A DNA stretch of 21,551 nucleotides from a virus: positions 1 through 21,551 of IMG/VR virus record IMGVR_UViG_3300028228_000341; one strand, 5' to 3'. The notes below the pieces were generated by a model that saw only the letters and a list, made by a program, of their open reading frames with translations, made no database searches and was not told the DNA's origin. Positions 15,338 to 21,507 of the stretch are shown in pieces (position 1 is the stretch's first letter; every line of letters starts with the position of its first letter). A program made the translations under genes and the position numbers.

Positions 15338-15371
15338 AAAAAAAGGCAGCACGGATTACGTGCTGCCTTTT
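15338..15371 (-). terminator. Intrinsic terminator after the hybrid regulator gene
   Basis: A perfect 13-bp stem, AAAAGGCAGCACG (15341-15353) with CGTGCTGCCTTTT (15359-15371), encloses a 5-base loop. It starts 11 bases after the regulator stop. Reading on the minus strand the stem is followed by seven T (15338-15344), as expected for a rho-independent terminator. On the plus strand only four T follow, so it could act weakly in the other direction. The hairpin core is shared with the terminator at 16319-16354. Confidence 0.88.
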
Positions 15372-15381
15372 AGTGTTTGTT

Positions 15382-16275
15382 TCATTTCGGCAACTTCAGT
15401 AACTCGATTCCAATTTCTTTCAGTTTCTGGCGGACGCACGCTATCCAATACTGCTTGACCTCTAACTTTTGCAACTCGCCCTCGCTGCTGTTTGCTAAAT
15501 CCTTAACCGTCTCAAATCCAATTTCTCGCAAGTCTTTTTCCATGTATGCGGGCAACTGTAAAAAGGAAATCGGTTCCTTGCCAGCTGCTGTAAGCGGTTG
15601 TGATCCTTCTATTTCGGCCAACGACAAACTGACATAGTGCCGCAATCTCCTTAACGCCTTGTCTCGCCAAGCCCCAATGTTGTGCGATTTCGTCCCAAGC
15701 TCTGTCGCCAGCTGCGGTATTGTTTTCAAGTCCCCGAACCCGAACAGTCCGCTGATGATTATTCGCTCTGTCTTTGTGAGCATGTGCAAGTTTCGCTCAA
15801 TTGCTTCTATCTGCAATTCTTTTTCGCCGTCCGGTTCAGTGTACTTCAGTAAACGTTCACGCGTCGCTGACGCATAGCTCAGCATTGCCGCTTCTTTCCA
15901 GTTGTACACCTTTTCCATCGACTTCGGAGCATTCAGGAACTCATGGTTTTTGCGTAGAACGTCCGGCCATAATTCCTCCCATGTCTTGCCTGTTAACTGA
16001 TACAACTTGGCTTCAGTTGCTGCAATGCGTTCCTCTGTCCAACCCCGTGCCGCTTCATTCGGTGGGCAGTATTTTAGGTTAATCCATTTACCAATCGCTG
16101 CATCAGAGATCCCCAAGTGCTTAGCCAAGGCCGACGCGCTGCCAACGACCTTAGCCGCCTCATGCAACGCCGCGTGCTTTATTTGCACTACTGCCGTAAT
16201 TCCGATTCCTAAATCTGTGCTCTGCTGATCTGTATCATCGTCTCTAATTACTGTGATTCCGTGCAGTTCAGACAT
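15382..16275 (-). CDS. Hybrid transcription regulator: HTH, sigma region 4-like and alpha-CTD-like domains
   Basis: From ATG 16275 (297 residues), with AGAGGTGA 5 bases upstream; the frame also opens at GTG 16284. Three parts can be seen. Residues 37-80 form a Cro/YdaS-like HTH (HEAAKVVGSASALAKHLGISDAAIGKWI). Residues 150-212 resemble sigma70 region 4: LQIEAIERNLHMLTKTERIII, GLFGFGDLKTIPQLATELG, then AWRDKALRRLRH. Residues 245-293 resemble the RNA polymerase alpha-CTD HhH fold (KDLREIGFETVKDLANSSEGEL ... VRQKLKEIGIEL). Sigma regions 2 and 3 are missing, so it is not a normal sigma factor. A DNA-binding factor that contacts RNA polymerase, controlling the adjacent head operon, is my inference. 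Terminators bound it on both sides. I cannot name a described family. Confidence 0.82.
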   Translation of the reverse strand: MSELHGITVIRDDDTDQQSTDLGIGITAVVQIKHAALHEAAKVVGSASALAKHLGISDAAIGKWINLKYCPPNEAARGWTEERIAATEAKLYQLTGKTWEELWPDVLRKNHEFLNAPKSMEKVYNWKEAAMLSYASATRERLLKYTEPDGEKELQIEAIERNLHMLTKTERIIISGLFGFGDLKTIPQLATELGTKSHNIGAWRDKALRRLRHYVSLSLAEIEGSQPLTAAGKEPISFLQLPAYMEKDLREIGFETVKDLANSSEGELQKLEVKQYWIACVRQKLKEIGIELLKLPK

Positions 16276-16309
16276 TGGCGTCACCTCTTTTCACTTTAGA
16301 CATGATCAT
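16268..16309 (-). CDS. Short leader ORF overlapping the regulator start
   Basis: A 13-codon ORF begins at ATG 16309, or at ATG 16303 with GGAG 9 bases upstream, and reads MSKVKRGDANV from the second start. Its TGA overlaps the beginning of the regulator gene. Its ribosome site, GTGGAGTAGATGAT, is the same sequence used by the DGQHR gene at 17163. It could couple translation of the regulator to a leader, or it may be a leftover of a duplicated cassette. Coding is not proven. Confidence 0.3.
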   Translation of the reverse strand: MIMSKVKRGDANV

Positions 16310-16318
16310 CTACTCCAC

Positions 16319-16354
16319 AAAAAAAACCGCAGCACGGATTACGTGCTGCCTTTT
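16319..16354 (-). terminator. Intrinsic terminator between DGQHR gene and regulator
   Basis: GCAGCACG (16329-16336) pairs with CGTGCTGC (16342-16349) around a 5-base loop. The flanking CC and C do not pair, and eight T follow on the minus strand (16319-16326). It lies 11 bases after the DGQHR gene stop and immediately before the ribosome site of the leader ORF. No promoter is visible between it and the regulator, so regulator mRNA must read through it or come from a promoter inside the upstream gene. The loop and inner stem equal those of the terminator at 15338-15371. Confidence 0.8.
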
Positions 16355-16365
16355 AAACTCATTGA

Positions 16366-17163
16366 CTAAATAAATCTCGGAATAGGCTCACCGATATAAA
16401 ACTTGAACCCGCTTTTGCCAGCGTTTTGGCCAATTCGCTCGGCATTCCATGCGCGAACACACCAAGTGAATATGTGCTCTTTCAACATTCTTTTCGACGC
16501 TGCCGCATGTGTTAGCAGTCTGTCTCTCAACTGCAACGCATTATTCGTAACAAGGATCTCCGAACGCTGCCCGGTGCCTACCGTAGACCAGAACTCAGTT
16601 GCAGCATAACTGTCCAGCCTACTGCATATAAACCAGCTAGTCCCAATGATCGACGGCGGTAGCGCTCCGCTGATTCGATTCTGCTTCCCAAACTTGGCTG
16701 CATCACGATGATGCTCCTTCAGATTCTCCACAACGTCTGAATGCGACGGTGCATCATGCTTTTGCAATGTCAAAGACGCGCCGCCCTTTTCATAAGCTTT
16801 TACCATCTTGTAAACCGAAGCACATTCAGTAGGATTCGAAATCCCGTGGCTTATCAAAATATCCGAAGCACTTCGCGTTTTGTTTTGATCGATCCGATCA
16901 AATGCCGAATCAGGAACGCCGAACATAACAACCGTTTCAACCGTAGTGCCAGATTGAACAATTGCCAATAAGCGATGCTGGCCATCAATTAACCTGCTGT
17001 CAGAAAAACGGATTGCATCACCTGTTAAAATCCATTTGCCCGCTTTAATGTCGGCAGTTATTTTTTTTACATGATCAAGTCTAATTTTGCGGTTGTTGGT
17101 GTTTTCCTTGAGCCACTCCCCCGCTAATTCCGGAGTCACTTCCATTGTTAGTATTCTCATCAT
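16366..17163 (-). CDS. DGQHR-motif ParB-like protein
   Basis: A 265-residue protein. ATG 17163 or ATG 17160 fit the GGAG site 3 and 6 bases upstream; ATG 17145 is a later option. The key motif is SRLIDGQHRLLAIVQSG (DGQHR at 60-64), in a ParB/Srx-type N-terminal domain beginning with EVTPELAGEWLKENTNNRKIR. It continues ADIKAGKWILTGDAIRFSD and FGVPDSAFDRIDQNKTRSASDIL, as in phage proteins of this group found in several bacterial lineages. The C-terminal half is helical (QLRDRLLTHAAASKRMLKEHIFTWCV). Reported relatives may bind DNA or act as a nuclease or NTPase, but the reaction here is unknown. It is transcribed from the promoter at 17274-17302 through a hairpin in its leader. Confidence 0.82.
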   Translation of the reverse strand: MMRILTMEVTPELAGEWLKENTNNRKIRLDHVKKITADIKAGKWILTGDAIRFSDSRLIDGQHRLLAIVQSGTTVETVVMFGVPDSAFDRIDQNKTRSASDILISHGISNPTECASVYKMVKAYEKGGASLTLQKHDAPSHSDVVENLKEHHRDAAKFGKQNRISGALPPSIIGTSWFICSRLDSYAATEFWSTVGTGQRSEILVTNNALQLRDRLLTHAAASKRMLKEHIFTWCVRAWNAERIGQNAGKSGFKFYIGEPIPRFI

Positions 17164-17173
17164 CTACTCCACG

Positions 17174-17216
17174 AAAAAACCCGCAGCATAGGAGGCGAGT
17201 CCTATGTGCGGGTTTC
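17174..17216 (-). terminator. Terminator or attenuator hairpin in the leader of the DGQHR gene
   Basis: On the plus strand CCCGCA (17180-17185) pairs with TGCGGG (17207-17212) and CATAGGA (17187-17193) with TCCTATG (17200-17206). One G is bulged, the loop is six bases, and A/T flanks extend the stem. Reading on the minus strand, a run of T (17174-17179) follows, and GTGGAG comes next. It lies between the promoter at 17274-17302 and the start codon, so it is placed to attenuate or insulate the gene, not to end an upstream one. Confidence 0.75.
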
Positions 17217-17273
17217 TTGCCGCGATTGCTCGCGGATGTATTTAGTTATCGACACTCGCCTGTCGACGCCGAA

Positions 17274-17302
17274 ACGATATCAATTGAGATAAGATTTGTC
17301 AA
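17274..17302 (-). promoter_or_regulatory. Sigma70-type promoter before the DGQHR gene
   Basis: On the minus strand TTGACA (17297-17302) is followed after exactly 17 bases by TATCGT (17274-17279), which matches TATAAT at 4 of 6. The AT-rich spacer includes AATCTTATCTCAATTGA. It lies between the zinc-ribbon gene stop (17309) and the leader hairpin and would start a transcript near 17267. This is the best promoter in the window. Confidence 0.7.
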
Positions 17303-17308
17303 CTACTT

Positions 17309-17542
17309 TTATCCAGATCTTTTCCCCTCGATGTCAACTGGTCGATGCTCGATCTTAATGACCTCGACCCGCACCTGTACGGACCACGTATAACCGCACG
17401 GAATCCCATCAGGCTGAGTAGACCTACAGCATTTGTAGTAGCGAGTGCTGTAATGCGTCGAATACGCTAGGCCATATCCTCCTGACCCATGCCAACACAA
17501 CGGGCAGTGACGATGGGATTCAATCACGCTAGGTTTACTCAT
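17309..17542 (-). CDS. Small zinc-ribbon protein
   Basis: The frame opens at 17578, but ATG 17542 (MSKPSVIESHRHCPLCW) overlaps the terminase C-terminus as ATGAGTAA and is preferred, giving 77 residues. It has a CPLC knuckle near residue 13 and a second set of cysteines about 25 residues later (YYKCCRS ... GIPCGYTW), a plausible zinc ribbon with the common C-G-Y/H-x-W ending. The closing tail is strand-rich (SVQVRVEVIKIEHRP). Small zinc-ribbon proteins of this size occur in phages as Ogr/Delta-like activators or as packaging accessories. I see no further motif, so the role is unknown. Its coding end touches the -35 of the next promoter. Confidence 0.7.
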   Translation of the reverse strand: MSKPSVIESHRHCPLCWHGSGGYGLAYSTHYSTRYYKCCRSTQPDGIPCGYTWSVQVRVEVIKIEHRPVDIEGKRSG

Positions 17543-17720
17543 TCCATGCCCGCCCATCTGGTCGTGTGTGGCCTGCATTCAACACAGTTTTCGGCCTTAT
17601 TGGTGACGCAATCCGTGACGGGTAGCCGCCATTTTCCTCAGCGTAAGCCCGAGCTAGCGCGATCCCATAACGCACGGCATCGCGAAAGTCATTCGGCTGC
17701 CCGTCATCTTTTTTACCCAT
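17535..17720 (-). CDS. C-terminal end of terminase large subunit, -1 frame
   Basis: A 61-codon frame whose ATG 17720 is probably not a true start. The sequence after KK, DDGQPNDFRDAVRYGIALARAYAEENGGYPSR, looks like the C-terminal helix of a gpA-type terminase (the D.FRDA.RY pattern). The preceding 218-codon frame ends in a shadow sequence (KKMTGSRMTF) after the same A run. A -1 slip at A AAA AAG (17708-17714) would join the two and end the protein at 17535. It could also be a one-base deletion in the run. I read it as a fragment of the terminase and not as an independent gene. Confidence 0.65.
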   Translation of the reverse strand: MGKKDDGQPNDFRDAVRYGIALARAYAEENGGYPSRIASPIRPKTVLNAGHTRPDGRAWNE

Positions 17721-18310
17721 AACAATTTCGCGTTACCTCGGTTGTCCACACGGTCTGCAATCATGCCGTTGCATAATTGCACAATGAATTCCATGTCATG
17801 TTCTGCACCAGCACAAACCGAAAGCGACCCCGGTTCTCCCGGCTCTCGATCATCTAATCGTGATTGCAGATCTGTCTCCCAGTAATCCGTGTTGACGGTA
17901 AATAATTCCTGCCCGGTGTACTCGCCAGACTCAACTGGTGACGCCTTGTATGGTCTGCCGCCTAGGTCCGTCGATGATCCTTTGCAGGGCATCATGCCTG
18001 CATGTAGGTTGCAAAAATCATAGGTTGCTTTAGTGTCCCATCCGCTGTCAACGCTGGCGGCATGTGGAGCACAAGCACTGCCGCCATCAGCATGTTGGTA
18101 ATGTGATTGGATCACGGATGACCATACGTCTGCCAACGTTAATGACATGCCATAATCAACGACGTGTGCCTGCTGCTCAATGCCGTGTGCAAGCACCACC
18201 CACAACCGAAACCCGCCGTCCGCCTCTTGCTGGTCGATTGTCACTGTGACCATCCGGCACCAATCAGGTAGGACGCGACGTGGCACAGTTGATTTGATTC
18301 GCTGGGCCAC
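17654..18310 (-). CDS. Terminase large subunit, nuclease domain fragment
   Basis: A frame of 218 codons from GTG 18310, but homology-like sequence already begins before it (KKLQQWINEDKGETWEV, in the same frame from about 18400). It carries the RNase H-like nuclease pattern of gpA terminases: a strand with Asp26 (VTVTIDQQEADGGFRLWVVL), a second acidic site at VDSGWDTKATYDFC (Asp88, Asp92), and SPVESGEYTGQELFTVNTDYW near the substrate face. The nuclease makes the staggered ends at the packaging site. The last 15 or so residues are an out-of-frame tail after A AAA AAG. It is separated from the ATPase part by a -1 break. Confidence 0.78.
   Translation of the reverse strand: MAQRIKSTVPRRVLPDWCRMVTVTIDQQEADGGFRLWVVLAHGIEQQAHVVDYGMSLTLADVWSSVIQSHYQHADGGSACAPHAASVDSGWDTKATYDFCNLHAGMMPCKGSSTDLGGRPYKASPVESGEYTGQELFTVNTDYWETDLQSRLDDREPGEPGSLSVCAGAEHDMEFIVQLCNGMIADRVDNRGNAKLLWVKKMTGSRMTFAMPCVMGSR
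17708..17714 (-). promoter_or_regulatory. Candidate -1 frameshift heptamer A AAA AAG in the terminase gene
   Basis: In the nuclease frame the codons are GTA AAA AAG, the correct phase for a slip, and A AAA AAG is the strongest known -1 site in Escherichia coli. The -1 frame continues KKDDGQPNDFRDAVRYG. A 6-bp stem CGCGAT/ATCGCG lies about 24 bases downstream, farther than usual. Confidence 0.4.
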
Positions 18311-19113
18311 TTTTTCCGGCGTTGATTTCGAACGCCTAACTTCCCACGTCTCGCCCTTGTCTTCGTTGATCCACTGCTGTAATTTCTTTGGGCTTTTATA
18401 CTTCGAAAGGAACCATCAATCATGTCACCCCAGCCATGGAACAAAGCATAGAACACGCTGAGCTGTGACCCATAATCTGACCCCCAGTTTAACGGCGTGC
18501 CGATCAGCCACGACATATCATCAGGCGGCAGATCCCTCGCAGACATTGCTCGCTCATGATCAACGGTACAACCAGCCGGAACCCATACGCCTAAATTCAT
18601 CATGCCCGGCCTGTGGATATCATCAATGCGACCCTCGCAATACAGACAAACATAGTGTGCAGTTCTTCGCGCTAGATCCCTATCGATGCCGCCTGCTTCC
18701 GGCCGCTCGTAATGAATGCCACCAGCGCTTTTGCCGTCGCCGAATTCAATGGTTTGAAACTTAAAACAGTGCGGACATGGAACATGATATTTATGGTTCG
18801 TGGATTGTAATCGGCCTGACTCAATCGCAGATCGTCCCGTGACACTCGGCGTTGATTCCAGCAGAAACTTTCGGTCTGGATACTCGGCCCCGCGTTTCAT
18901 AAACCTGTCGATCGGATCACCTTCCGTCGATGTCGATTCTGAAAACCATTTATCGATTTCGTTCCCATGTCCCATGCGAATCGATTTGTCAGCTAGCCGA
19001 GACTTACCACGCGGCCATGCTCCGTGACAGTTTGATCGCCGCAACTTGATCTGCGTCTTGCTTTGCCGGATCGATACTTGGAGCCTGATCCCGGATGCGT
19101 GGGCAATGCTCAA
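18241..19113 (-). CDS. Terminase large subunit, ATPase centre and zinc-finger fragment
   Basis: A frame of 290 codons beginning at a TTG (19113); the first 32 residues are out-of-frame shadow. Real sequence starts near residue 33 (WPRGKSRLADKSIRMG), which lines up well with lambda NYREKSVDVAG. The expected Walker B acid pair reads NE at 51-52 (NEIDKW) where DE is usual. The coupling motif STP is at 87-89 (LLESTPSVTG). A Cys-rich insert, CPHC (113-116) and CLYC (156-159), is the zinc-binding part typical of gpA. After about residue 237 (GSFRSIK) the frame leaves the homologous sequence, and the last 50 residues are shadow. Confidence 0.78.
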   Translation of the reverse strand: MSIAHASGIRLQVSIRQSKTQIKLRRSNCHGAWPRGKSRLADKSIRMGHGNEIDKWFSESTSTEGDPIDRFMKRGAEYPDRKFLLESTPSVTGRSAIESGRLQSTNHKYHVPCPHCFKFQTIEFGDGKSAGGIHYERPEAGGIDRDLARRTAHYVCLYCEGRIDDIHRPGMMNLGVWVPAGCTVDHERAMSARDLPPDDMSWLIGTPLNWGSDYGSQLSVFYALFHGWGDMIDGSFRSIKAQRNYSSGSTKTRARRGKLGVRNQRRKKWPSESNQLCHVASYLIGAGWSQ

Positions 19114-19447
19114 TCATCTTCCATAGTCGAGCGAAGACCTGCTTACAGTTTGTCTCATCGGGCGTCGCGAACATTGTTTCTTCCGGCCGCTGGTCCATTG
19201 ATTTTTGCAGCATCGCCAGCCCGAAATTTGTCTTGAACATTCGGGCGGCCCATTGCAGCCACAGCGTGCGAAACTGAATTGAGTCATAAGCCCAGCATGG
19301 CCCCTGTGGTGCTGTGACCCACGGGCATTGTTGCTCCGAAAAAGCCTCGCCTGTGTGTGTGTAGAAATATGATCGCAGCCAGTCGGCAGACGACTCCTGC
19401 TCTTGGAGCGTCATACCCGACGCGATCACGCGAAATACAAAACTCAT
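19004..19447 (-). CDS. Terminase large subunit, N-terminal fragment
   Basis: A 147-codon frame from ATG 19447, which overlaps the small-subunit stop as ATGA; AGGGA is 9 bases upstream. It has the gpA opening: SADWLRSYFYTHTGEAFSEQQ, then QFRTLWLQWAARMFKTNFG, then TMFATPDETNCKQVFARLWKMIEHCPRI. The segment ARMFKT (68-73) stands where the Walker A of the family has G-K-S/T, with Phe in place of Gly. Lambda itself has a deviant A motif here (ARVGYSK), so this may still bind ATP. The frame ends at TAA 19004 shortly before the segment that should lead to Walker B, which continues in the +1 frame. Confidence 0.8.
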   Translation of the reverse strand: MSFVFRVIASGMTLQEQESSADWLRSYFYTHTGEAFSEQQCPWVTAPQGPCWAYDSIQFRTLWLQWAARMFKTNFGLAMLQKSMDQRPEETMFATPDETNCKQVFARLWKMIEHCPRIRDQAPSIDPAKQDADQVAAIKLSRSMAAW

Positions 19448-20034: not shown

Positions 20035-20296
20035 TTGTGAGGCTCACTAAGTCAGAGTGACTGTGCTGGTGCAGATGCAACGCTGATGGATCAGTAGCAC
20101 CAAACACCGACGGTTTATTCTGTGCGTTGAGTGCTGCTAGCACTCGCATCGCTGCCGTCTTTTCTCGATTGGTTCCGGTTGCAATGATCTTCAACATTTC
20201 GTTCGGGCCAATTGTAAACGCCCGATCATCAATCTGCCATGACTGGTTGATTGATTGCTCCATCAGCCGGAGCTCGCTGCGGATTGTTTGCGTCAT
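19973..20296 (-). CDS. Small conserved packaging-region protein
   Basis: A 107-residue protein from ATG 20296, overlapping the methyltransferase stop as ATGA, with a strong GGAGG 7 bases upstream. It has an N-terminal helical segment (SELRLMEQSINQSWQIDD), a helix of the form TGTNREKTAAMRVLAALNAQNK, and a basic C-terminus (QRKQRNAERLDRIKRLGN). The REKTAA.R.L.A...QN pattern recalls short proteins just upstream of phage small terminase genes. I do not know their function. A role in packaging or terminase regulation is suggested only by position. Confidence 0.75.
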   Translation of the reverse strand: MTQTIRSELRLMEQSINQSWQIDDRAFTIGPNEMLKIIATGTNREKTAAMRVLAALNAQNKPSVFGATDPSALHLHQHSHSDLVSLTIDQRKQRNAERLDRIKRLGN

Positions 20297-21507
20297 TGAT
20301 CACCCTCCAGCGTCGCCGTCTTGCCGGTGAGTGTTTCCCATCGATTGACGATCACGTCGCAGTAGGCTGGTGAGATTTCCATTCCGTAACACTTGCGGTT
20401 GAGTTGTTCGGCTGCGATCAGGGTTGTGCCGCTGCCGCAGAACAAATCAAGAATATCACCACCCTCTGAATAGTCCTCAATTATCGACGCCATCAACCTG
20501 ATTGGTTTTTGTGTTGGATGTACTCGCCTAGCGTTGTGCCCGTCGTCATTTACGACGCCGCCGTGCATTATTCTGTAAAACTTATCAAAGCCACTGGTCT
20601 TGTTTGTCCATGCTAATTCAAACGGAGAACCGAGCATCCTGTCTGCATTTTCGTTGACGCGTTTATCCCAACAAATCCATCGCCCACGAAACGGCAACTG
20701 ATCAGGGTAGCAGTTCGCACCGAATGAAACGACGATTTCATACGCCTCAAGTATAGGTCTGAGACTTAATTCACCGCTGTCGTTTGCTATTCCGCTCCAC
20801 TCAAGAGTCGATGCGTTTGATCCTTGCCAGTTTATCCCGTACGGCGGGTCTGTGATTAAACATCTTACCTTCTCACCGCCCATCAACCGCTCAATGTCCT
20901 CCGCCTTCGTGCTGTCGCCACACAGCACCCGATGCGTTCCAAGAATCCACAGGTCGCCCGGGTTCGTTATTGGATCAACTGGTGGCTCTGGCACCTCGTC
21001 TTCAATGATCTCCGCTGCCGTCGCTTCATCGATGTACAGACTTGCGGAGTCGGCCAACTCAGCCACCAACGCCTGTAACGCCGCGTCAGAAAATTCCACC
21101 TCTCTCAGCAACGCATCCAGATTCACCGCGTTCGCCGTGGCCATGGCACTGATCGGATCGAACGTCAGCAGGATCTTTGTAGCTTCCTCCGGCGTCACGT
21201 CCAGCACCAGCACAGGCACCATCTGATCAGGCATCATTCCTGCACGCATGTGACCGTCAACTATTTCATACGTGCCATCACCAATCTCGCGGACGAGCAA
21301 CGCGTCGACCATGCCGACCTCTGCGAGGATGCCGGACATCGCTGCTTTCTGGCCGTCGCTATGTGATCGCCAGTTCAGCGGATTCGCCAACAGGTCTGCA
21401 CAGCGAACGCGGTCGAACCGATTGATGCGGTCGCGGATCTGCAACGCCCCCCTTCCCCGCCTGATTAGATTTCGCCATGTTTTTATTTCCCTTGCGGAAC
21501 GGAACAC
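20293..21507 (-). CDS. ParB-like domain fused to adenine-type DNA methyltransferase
   Basis: The longest frame begins at GTG 21507 (404 codons). The likelier start is ATG 21478 in the neighbouring frame (MAKSNQAGKG, with AAGGGA 9 bases upstream). One base too many in the G run at 21447-21452 would explain the shift, after which the two join at ALQIRDRINRF. Residues 33-110 are ParB-like with DGHMR (84-88). Residues 183-400 are a class beta methyltransferase: DPPYG (220-224), HPTQKP (330-335), then FCGSGTT (356-362) for S-adenosylmethionine. DPPY favours N6-adenine. Such fusions often sit beside phage terminase genes. A role in shielding phage DNA or timing packaging is inference. Confidence 0.88.
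   Translation of the reverse strand: MFRSAREIKTWRNLIRRGRGALQIRDRINRFDRVRCADLLANPLNWRSHSDGQKAAMSGILAEVGMVDALLVREIGDGTYEIVDGHMRAGMMPDQMVPVLVLDVTPEEATKILLTFDPISAMATANAVNLDALLREVEFSDAALQALVAELADSASLYIDEATAAEIIEDEVPEPPVDPITNPGDLWILGTHRVLCGDSTKAEDIERLMGGEKVRCLITDPPYGINWQGSNASTLEWSGIANDSGELSLRPILEAYEIVVSFGANCYPDQLPFRGRWICWDKRVNENADRMLGSPFELAWTNKTSGFDKFYRIMHGGVVNDDGHNARRVHPTQKPIRLMASIIEDYSEGGDILDLFCGSGTTLIAAEQLNRKCYGMEISPAYCDVIVNRWETLTGKTATLEGDQ

Follow-up and report, generated by a model that had tools for sequence, protein, structure and literature searches.

Among the known systems that the locus analysed here can be compared with are phage proteins that redirect RNA polymerase at its beta flap or at sigma region 4, namely gp33/gp55 and AsiA/MotA of T4 (PMC2988020, PMC7892883, PMC6755090). 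To the regulator that we describe they offer an analogy only: kinship in sequence was not found, nor did we find in the literature a functional account of a protein that combines a helix-turn-helix (HTH), a sigma region 4 domain and an alpha-CTD. The roles of the residues with which sigma region 4 reads the -35 element, and of those that form the DNA determinant of the alpha-CTD, are established for E. coli RNA polymerase.

Three modules in one regulator

The regulator is encoded by an open reading frame at 15382-16284 on the minus strand of the window (the whole 21,551-nucleotide stretch of viral DNA that was analysed; IMG/VR record IMGVR_UViG_3300028228_000341), with its stop codon at 15382-15384. 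A GTG start would give 300 residues; the best start is the ATG at 16275 (297 residues), for which AGAGGTGA serves as ribosome site. Three modules follow one another along the protein: a YdaS/Cro-type HTH, a sigma region 4 domain and an alpha-CTD-type domain (Table 1). This plan had been proposed in a sequence-only reading as a matter of pattern recognition; the motifs quoted there are all present in the protein, and profile matches and fold searches now bear the plan out. The full-length AlphaFold model has a low pLDDT of 48, in which the helices are nonetheless placed as expected. We also observed a 13-codon leader reading frame (MIMSKVKRGDANV; window 16275-16316), slightly different in the phage L003, that overlaps the regulator's start codon at its end; translational coupling between the two is possible.

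Table 1. Features of the cassette and of the regulator, in window coordinates
Feature	Position	Strand	Remarks
Regulator, 297 aa	15385..16275	minus	HTH 38-72, linker, sigma region 4-like ~148-222, alpha-CTD-like ~237-297
HTH, YdaS/Cro type, residues 38-72	16060..16164	minus	Pfam match, model, allele comparison
Sigma region 4-like domain, residues 148-222	15610..15834	minus	Fold and profile; -35 contact residues replaced
Alpha-CTD-like (HhH) domain, residues 237-297	15385..15567	minus	Profile and fold; DNA determinant residues replaced
Mobile two-gene cassette	15339..17285		Sole long DNA stretch shared with L003/L004, 94%
First cassette gene, 265 aa, phrog_5931	16366..17163	minus	97% identical in L003
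Terminator hairpin, downstream border	15341..15371	minus	Common to phages with other cassette
Terminator hairpin and U-tract between cassette genes	16321..16349	minus	GTGGAG and regulator leader directly after
Terminator-like hairpin and U-tract	17167..17216	minus	Just before first cassette gene
Promoter-like TTGACA-17-TATCGT, upstream border	17274..17302	minus	Identical in L011; similar element in L015

The N-terminal module is assigned to the YdaS/Cro type by a Pfam match to YdaS_toxin (PF15943) that covers residues 38-72 and exceeds the cut-off (E 1.7e-8; 34.6 bits against 30); the allele in L003, which is 84% identical over the regulator, matches at E 2.3e-9 (37.4 bits). Despite its name, YdaS is better regarded as a Cro-like regulator than as a toxin. 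The two alleles differ at four residues of the recognition helix (58-60 and 62 within helix 58-65; DAAIG in the window, ATEIC in L003), whereas the intergenic DNA between the two cassette genes is nearly unchanged, and we infer from this disparity that the operator of the HTH would lie outside that intergenic DNA. Simple positive selection on the helix was considered and rejected: dS is also high there, which points to recombination instead. Across the gene, dS against L003 runs from 0.07 in the linker up to 0.79 in HTH residues 38-72, so the gene is a mosaic. Its dN/dS against the same allele, 0.38 overall, shows that it is under purifying selection.

Evidence for the sigma region 4 module was derived from profiles and from structure prediction. 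Direct matches of the regulator to sigma factor families are weak (PHROG sigma factor, 2e-4; NCBIfam RpoD_Cterm, 7e-4), the Pfam scan did not report the Sigma70_r4 model itself, and a sigma-4 profile of only two sequences missed the protein. A region 4 profile drawn from Planctomycetota and E. coli recovers it at E = 2e-9 and 34.2 bits, the best of 2000 shuffled copies of the regulator (the control for this profile and for that of the alpha-CTD) reaching 8.6 bits. In addition, Foldseek matches the model to region 4 structures with a probability of 1.00, and VIA aligns it with such structures over 71-80 residues at Z ~10. By sequence and modelled fold, then, a sigma-70 region 4 domain is present in the regulator, as the sequence-only reading had anticipated. 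Its residues for -35 recognition, however, have gone: R584, E585, R588 and Q589 of E. coli RpoD are replaced by S197, H198, G201 (Ser in L003) and A202. Sigma region 2 gave no match in the Pfam scan, and residues 73-145 are modelled at low confidence. We set aside the reading of the protein as a sigma factor.

For the C-terminal module, the direct Pfam alpha-CTD match is weak and below the cut-off (0.008 for the isolated domain), and alpha-CTD chains of the PDB match the regulator at 0.4 only. A profile of the second of two alpha-CTD copies in Planctomycetota TPR proteins recovers it at E = 3e-9; the parent fragment of this profile matches Pfam RNA_pol_A_CTD at 8e-31 in two stretches, whereas a profile of the first copy missed the regulator. 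A separate model of the C-terminal 74 residues reaches a moderate pLDDT of 62, and RNAP alpha chains fill the first 19 rows that VIA returned for it (Z 6.1-7.3). Since RAD51-type HhH domains rank close behind, the fold match alone would not decide the identity of the module; it is by sequence and modelled fold together that we recognise an RNA polymerase alpha-CTD domain. Again the DNA-contacting residues are replaced: the 265 determinant of E. coli RpoA, R265/N268/G296/K298/S299/E302, corresponds to Y, K/I, K/N, Y/N, W and C/G. The alpha-CTD seeds and most of the sigma-4 seeds had themselves been retrieved by the phage profile, which flatters the values of 3e-9 and 2e-9 to some extent; the fold searches do not depend on those seeds.

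The bacterial-genome relatives of the capsid proteins of related phages lie in Thermoguttaceae, Pirellulaceae and Gemmata genomes only; because all of these are Planctomycetota, that phylum is the probable host. A profile of the two regulator alleles was run over two samples of Planctomycetota (392 and 396 genomes), in which a full-length relative was not found; residues ~136-220 matched RpoD-type sigma factors, and residues 236-292 matched TPR proteins with a pair of alpha-CTD copies at their C-terminal end (best E 1e-5). The regulator protein scanned against genome contigs gave no relatives. Viral scans with the single protein and with the two-allele alignment returned the same three contigs, and a pattern search of DNA for the WEELWP motif brought up, besides loci already known, just a single short YdaS-like protein.

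A cassette between terminase and portal

The regulator is the second gene of a cassette with hairpins at its bounds; some relatives of the first gene (phrog_5931) are annotated ParB-like. The L003/L004 phage, which shares this cassette, is otherwise unrelated to the window in DNA. Terminase comes before the regulator, and the head-tail adaptor (phrog_118), portal and capsid come after it; the earlier statements that the gene directly precedes the head operon and is flanked by terminators are both correct. A point that had not been seen is that the cassette is exchangeable. In L011, a terminase region 98% identical to that of the window is followed by a different gene pair at the cassette site (phrog_4652 and, weakly, phrog_5926), before a different portal gene and with the same hairpin at the end; the alternative pair is also carried by L013 and L015. 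Because L011 shares the terminase region but has the other cassette there, we take the terminase-portal junction to be an exchange site; by the same comparison, a sister phage with the same terminase and another cassette, the regulator looks accessory and dispensable for the phage core. As in a moron, the genes are present or absent between close relatives, are bounded by terminators and have a promoter-like site at their border, of a kind whose number in the cassette region is not above chance. Seven viral contigs in all match a pattern for the terminator hairpin. Three known phages with relatives of the partner gene have no comparable regulator among their annotated neighbours.

The alternative cassette (L013 1900-3030, L015 7300-8530, L011 3910-4790) contains many G-rich GGCAAGGCA-like repeats, and GGGCACCAA(T/C)GGTGC units recur next to its second gene.

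Upstream of the slot, a promoter-like site, a hairpin leader and a terminator before the ribosome site are found in the window (17157-17320), L011 (3080-3275) and L015 (9210-9380). The leader that follows the promoter-like site has a hairpin and U-tract directly ahead of the first gene's ribosome site; it is the same in L011 and similar in L015, and so precedes two different cassettes. This shared leader looks like an attenuator.

Elsewhere in the window, the large terminase gene (17654-19447) consists of three overlapping reading frames split by single-base gaps. The copies in L011 and L002 are 98-99% identical and open (637 and 641 codons), so the split is a sequencing error or recent decay. 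The packaging module starts with a DNA methyltransferase that has a ParB-like N-terminal part (phrog_498; 20293-21507), and a very cysteine-rich protein of 525 aa (1014-2591) lies downstream of tail-like genes.

How the regulator may act

We hypothesize, with a probability of roughly 0.5, that the protein is an accessory, cassette-borne transcription regulator in which the HTH binds an operator and the degenerate, polymerase-derived modules either dock on polymerase or its partners or oligomerise. The operator bound by the HTH would lie outside the cassette; the two polymerase-derived modules would, less certainly, dock on RNA polymerase or on partners (beta flap, sigma, activators), or might instead hold the regulator together as an oligomer; and operator binding would turn nearby transcription up or down. 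Because the folds are kept and the known DNA contacts are lost in both alleles, the two modules have the look of parts for docking or scaffolding, and the regulator probably works through protein contacts. The sequence-only reading had based its functional inference on DNA contact by both modules, a basis that falls with the replaced determinants; its three modules stand and its view of their meaning is partly right, in that a polymerase-recruiting role is possible.

The main rival to an account based on protein contacts is a scaffold role: the protein would be an ordinary HTH repressor or activator, its later modules serving only for dimerisation or as second DNA-binding parts and never touching polymerase. 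Phage regulators do commonly consist of an HTH and an extra helical domain, and with the known functional residues lost from both modules, these may be inert scaffolds. On the other hand, two polymerase-derived modules that occur together, and similarly in two other mobile elements, probably do more than serve as scaffolds, and the gene is under purifying selection; we regard this rival as possible, with the odds against it. An extension of the docking proposal, which we think unlikely, would have the regulator mimic two promoter-contacting polymerase domains and dock at the flap and the activator face, the HTH supplying a new DNA specificity, so that no sigma factor would be needed to redirect host polymerase; the packaging-head junction would be a swap site for such control cassettes.

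The location of the gene inside the packaging/head module, together with a weak match to phrog_248 (transcriptional activator; 0.002, residues 138-210 only), would fit a late-gene activator like ArpU/RinA that turns on the surrounding packaging and head genes. We consider this quite improbable: the sister phage, with terminase DNA 98% identical, has an unrelated cassette at the site in place of the gene, which is therefore seemingly not needed for late expression, and the regulator's own terminators separate it from the operon. By analogy with lambda Q, the protein might also act in antitermination or attenuation and enable polymerase to read through the hairpins, since a terminator hairpin, a U-tract and a ribosome site precede each cassette gene, with no room for a promoter between them; the alternative cassette, though it lacks the regulator, has the same leader before it, which makes such a role highly improbable. 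The Pfam name YdaS_toxin is all that speaks for a toxin, a reading that we set aside as next to negligible: the match is limited to the HTH, and the rest of the protein is not toxin-like.

The regulator of our preferred account keeps its folds without the DNA-reading residues, and so offers a clean test of whether such modules work via polymerase contacts alone. Its cassette context shows how regulators are exchanged among the little-studied phages of one bacterial phylum.

Comparison with proteins of similar plan

Planctomycetota RpoD and related sigma factors resemble the phage module in region 4 sequence and fold (27-36% identity); unlike RpoD, the phage protein yields no Pfam match to regions 1-3, and its -35 reading residues are gone. 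Among the relatives found, the nearest to the C-terminal module is the second alpha-CTD copy of the Planctomycetota TPR proteins (L021-L024, L026, L027), with 31-33% identity and the profile E of 3e-9. These proteins have TPR where the phage protein has HTH and sigma-4, and they keep the equivalents of R265 and N268. The two C-terminal alpha-CTD copies of the L021-L027 proteins differ from each other, the second being without the G296-S299 motif; to our knowledge, no functional description of these proteins exists.

Proteins with HTH, sigma region 4 and alpha-CTD are found on phages and plasmids. We reached a gut phage protein of 331 aa (L057, L060; MT835636.1) by way of the E. coli alpha-CTD, used as a query against phage records; the protein is 99% identical in the IMG/VR contig IMGVR_UViG_2906454065_000002, and a search with the regulator did not retrieve it. 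It matches HTH_17, Sigma70_r4 and RNA_pol_A_CTD, all above the Pfam cut-offs; it has the regulator's module order and likewise has ParB-like genes nearby. In contrast to the regulator, its HTH is of the MerR/excisionase rather than the YdaS/Cro type, and it has retained both its -35 residues (SRERVRQI) and the greater part of its alpha-CTD DNA determinant (R265, N268, NFGKKSL). The Chryseobacterium taklimakanense protein WP_124785686.1 (294 aa, mobilizable plasmid) shares part of the architecture: the modules assigned in it, outside its N-terminal part, are a sigma-4-like one and an alpha-CTD nearer the canonical form than the regulator's. Because these two proteins have the same or a similar plan, the earlier phrase 'new kind' of switch is too strong. 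Their recurrence suggests that the combination is under selection; judged from sequence, the domain plan is a recurrent one on mobile elements, and the likeness described here is one of plan.
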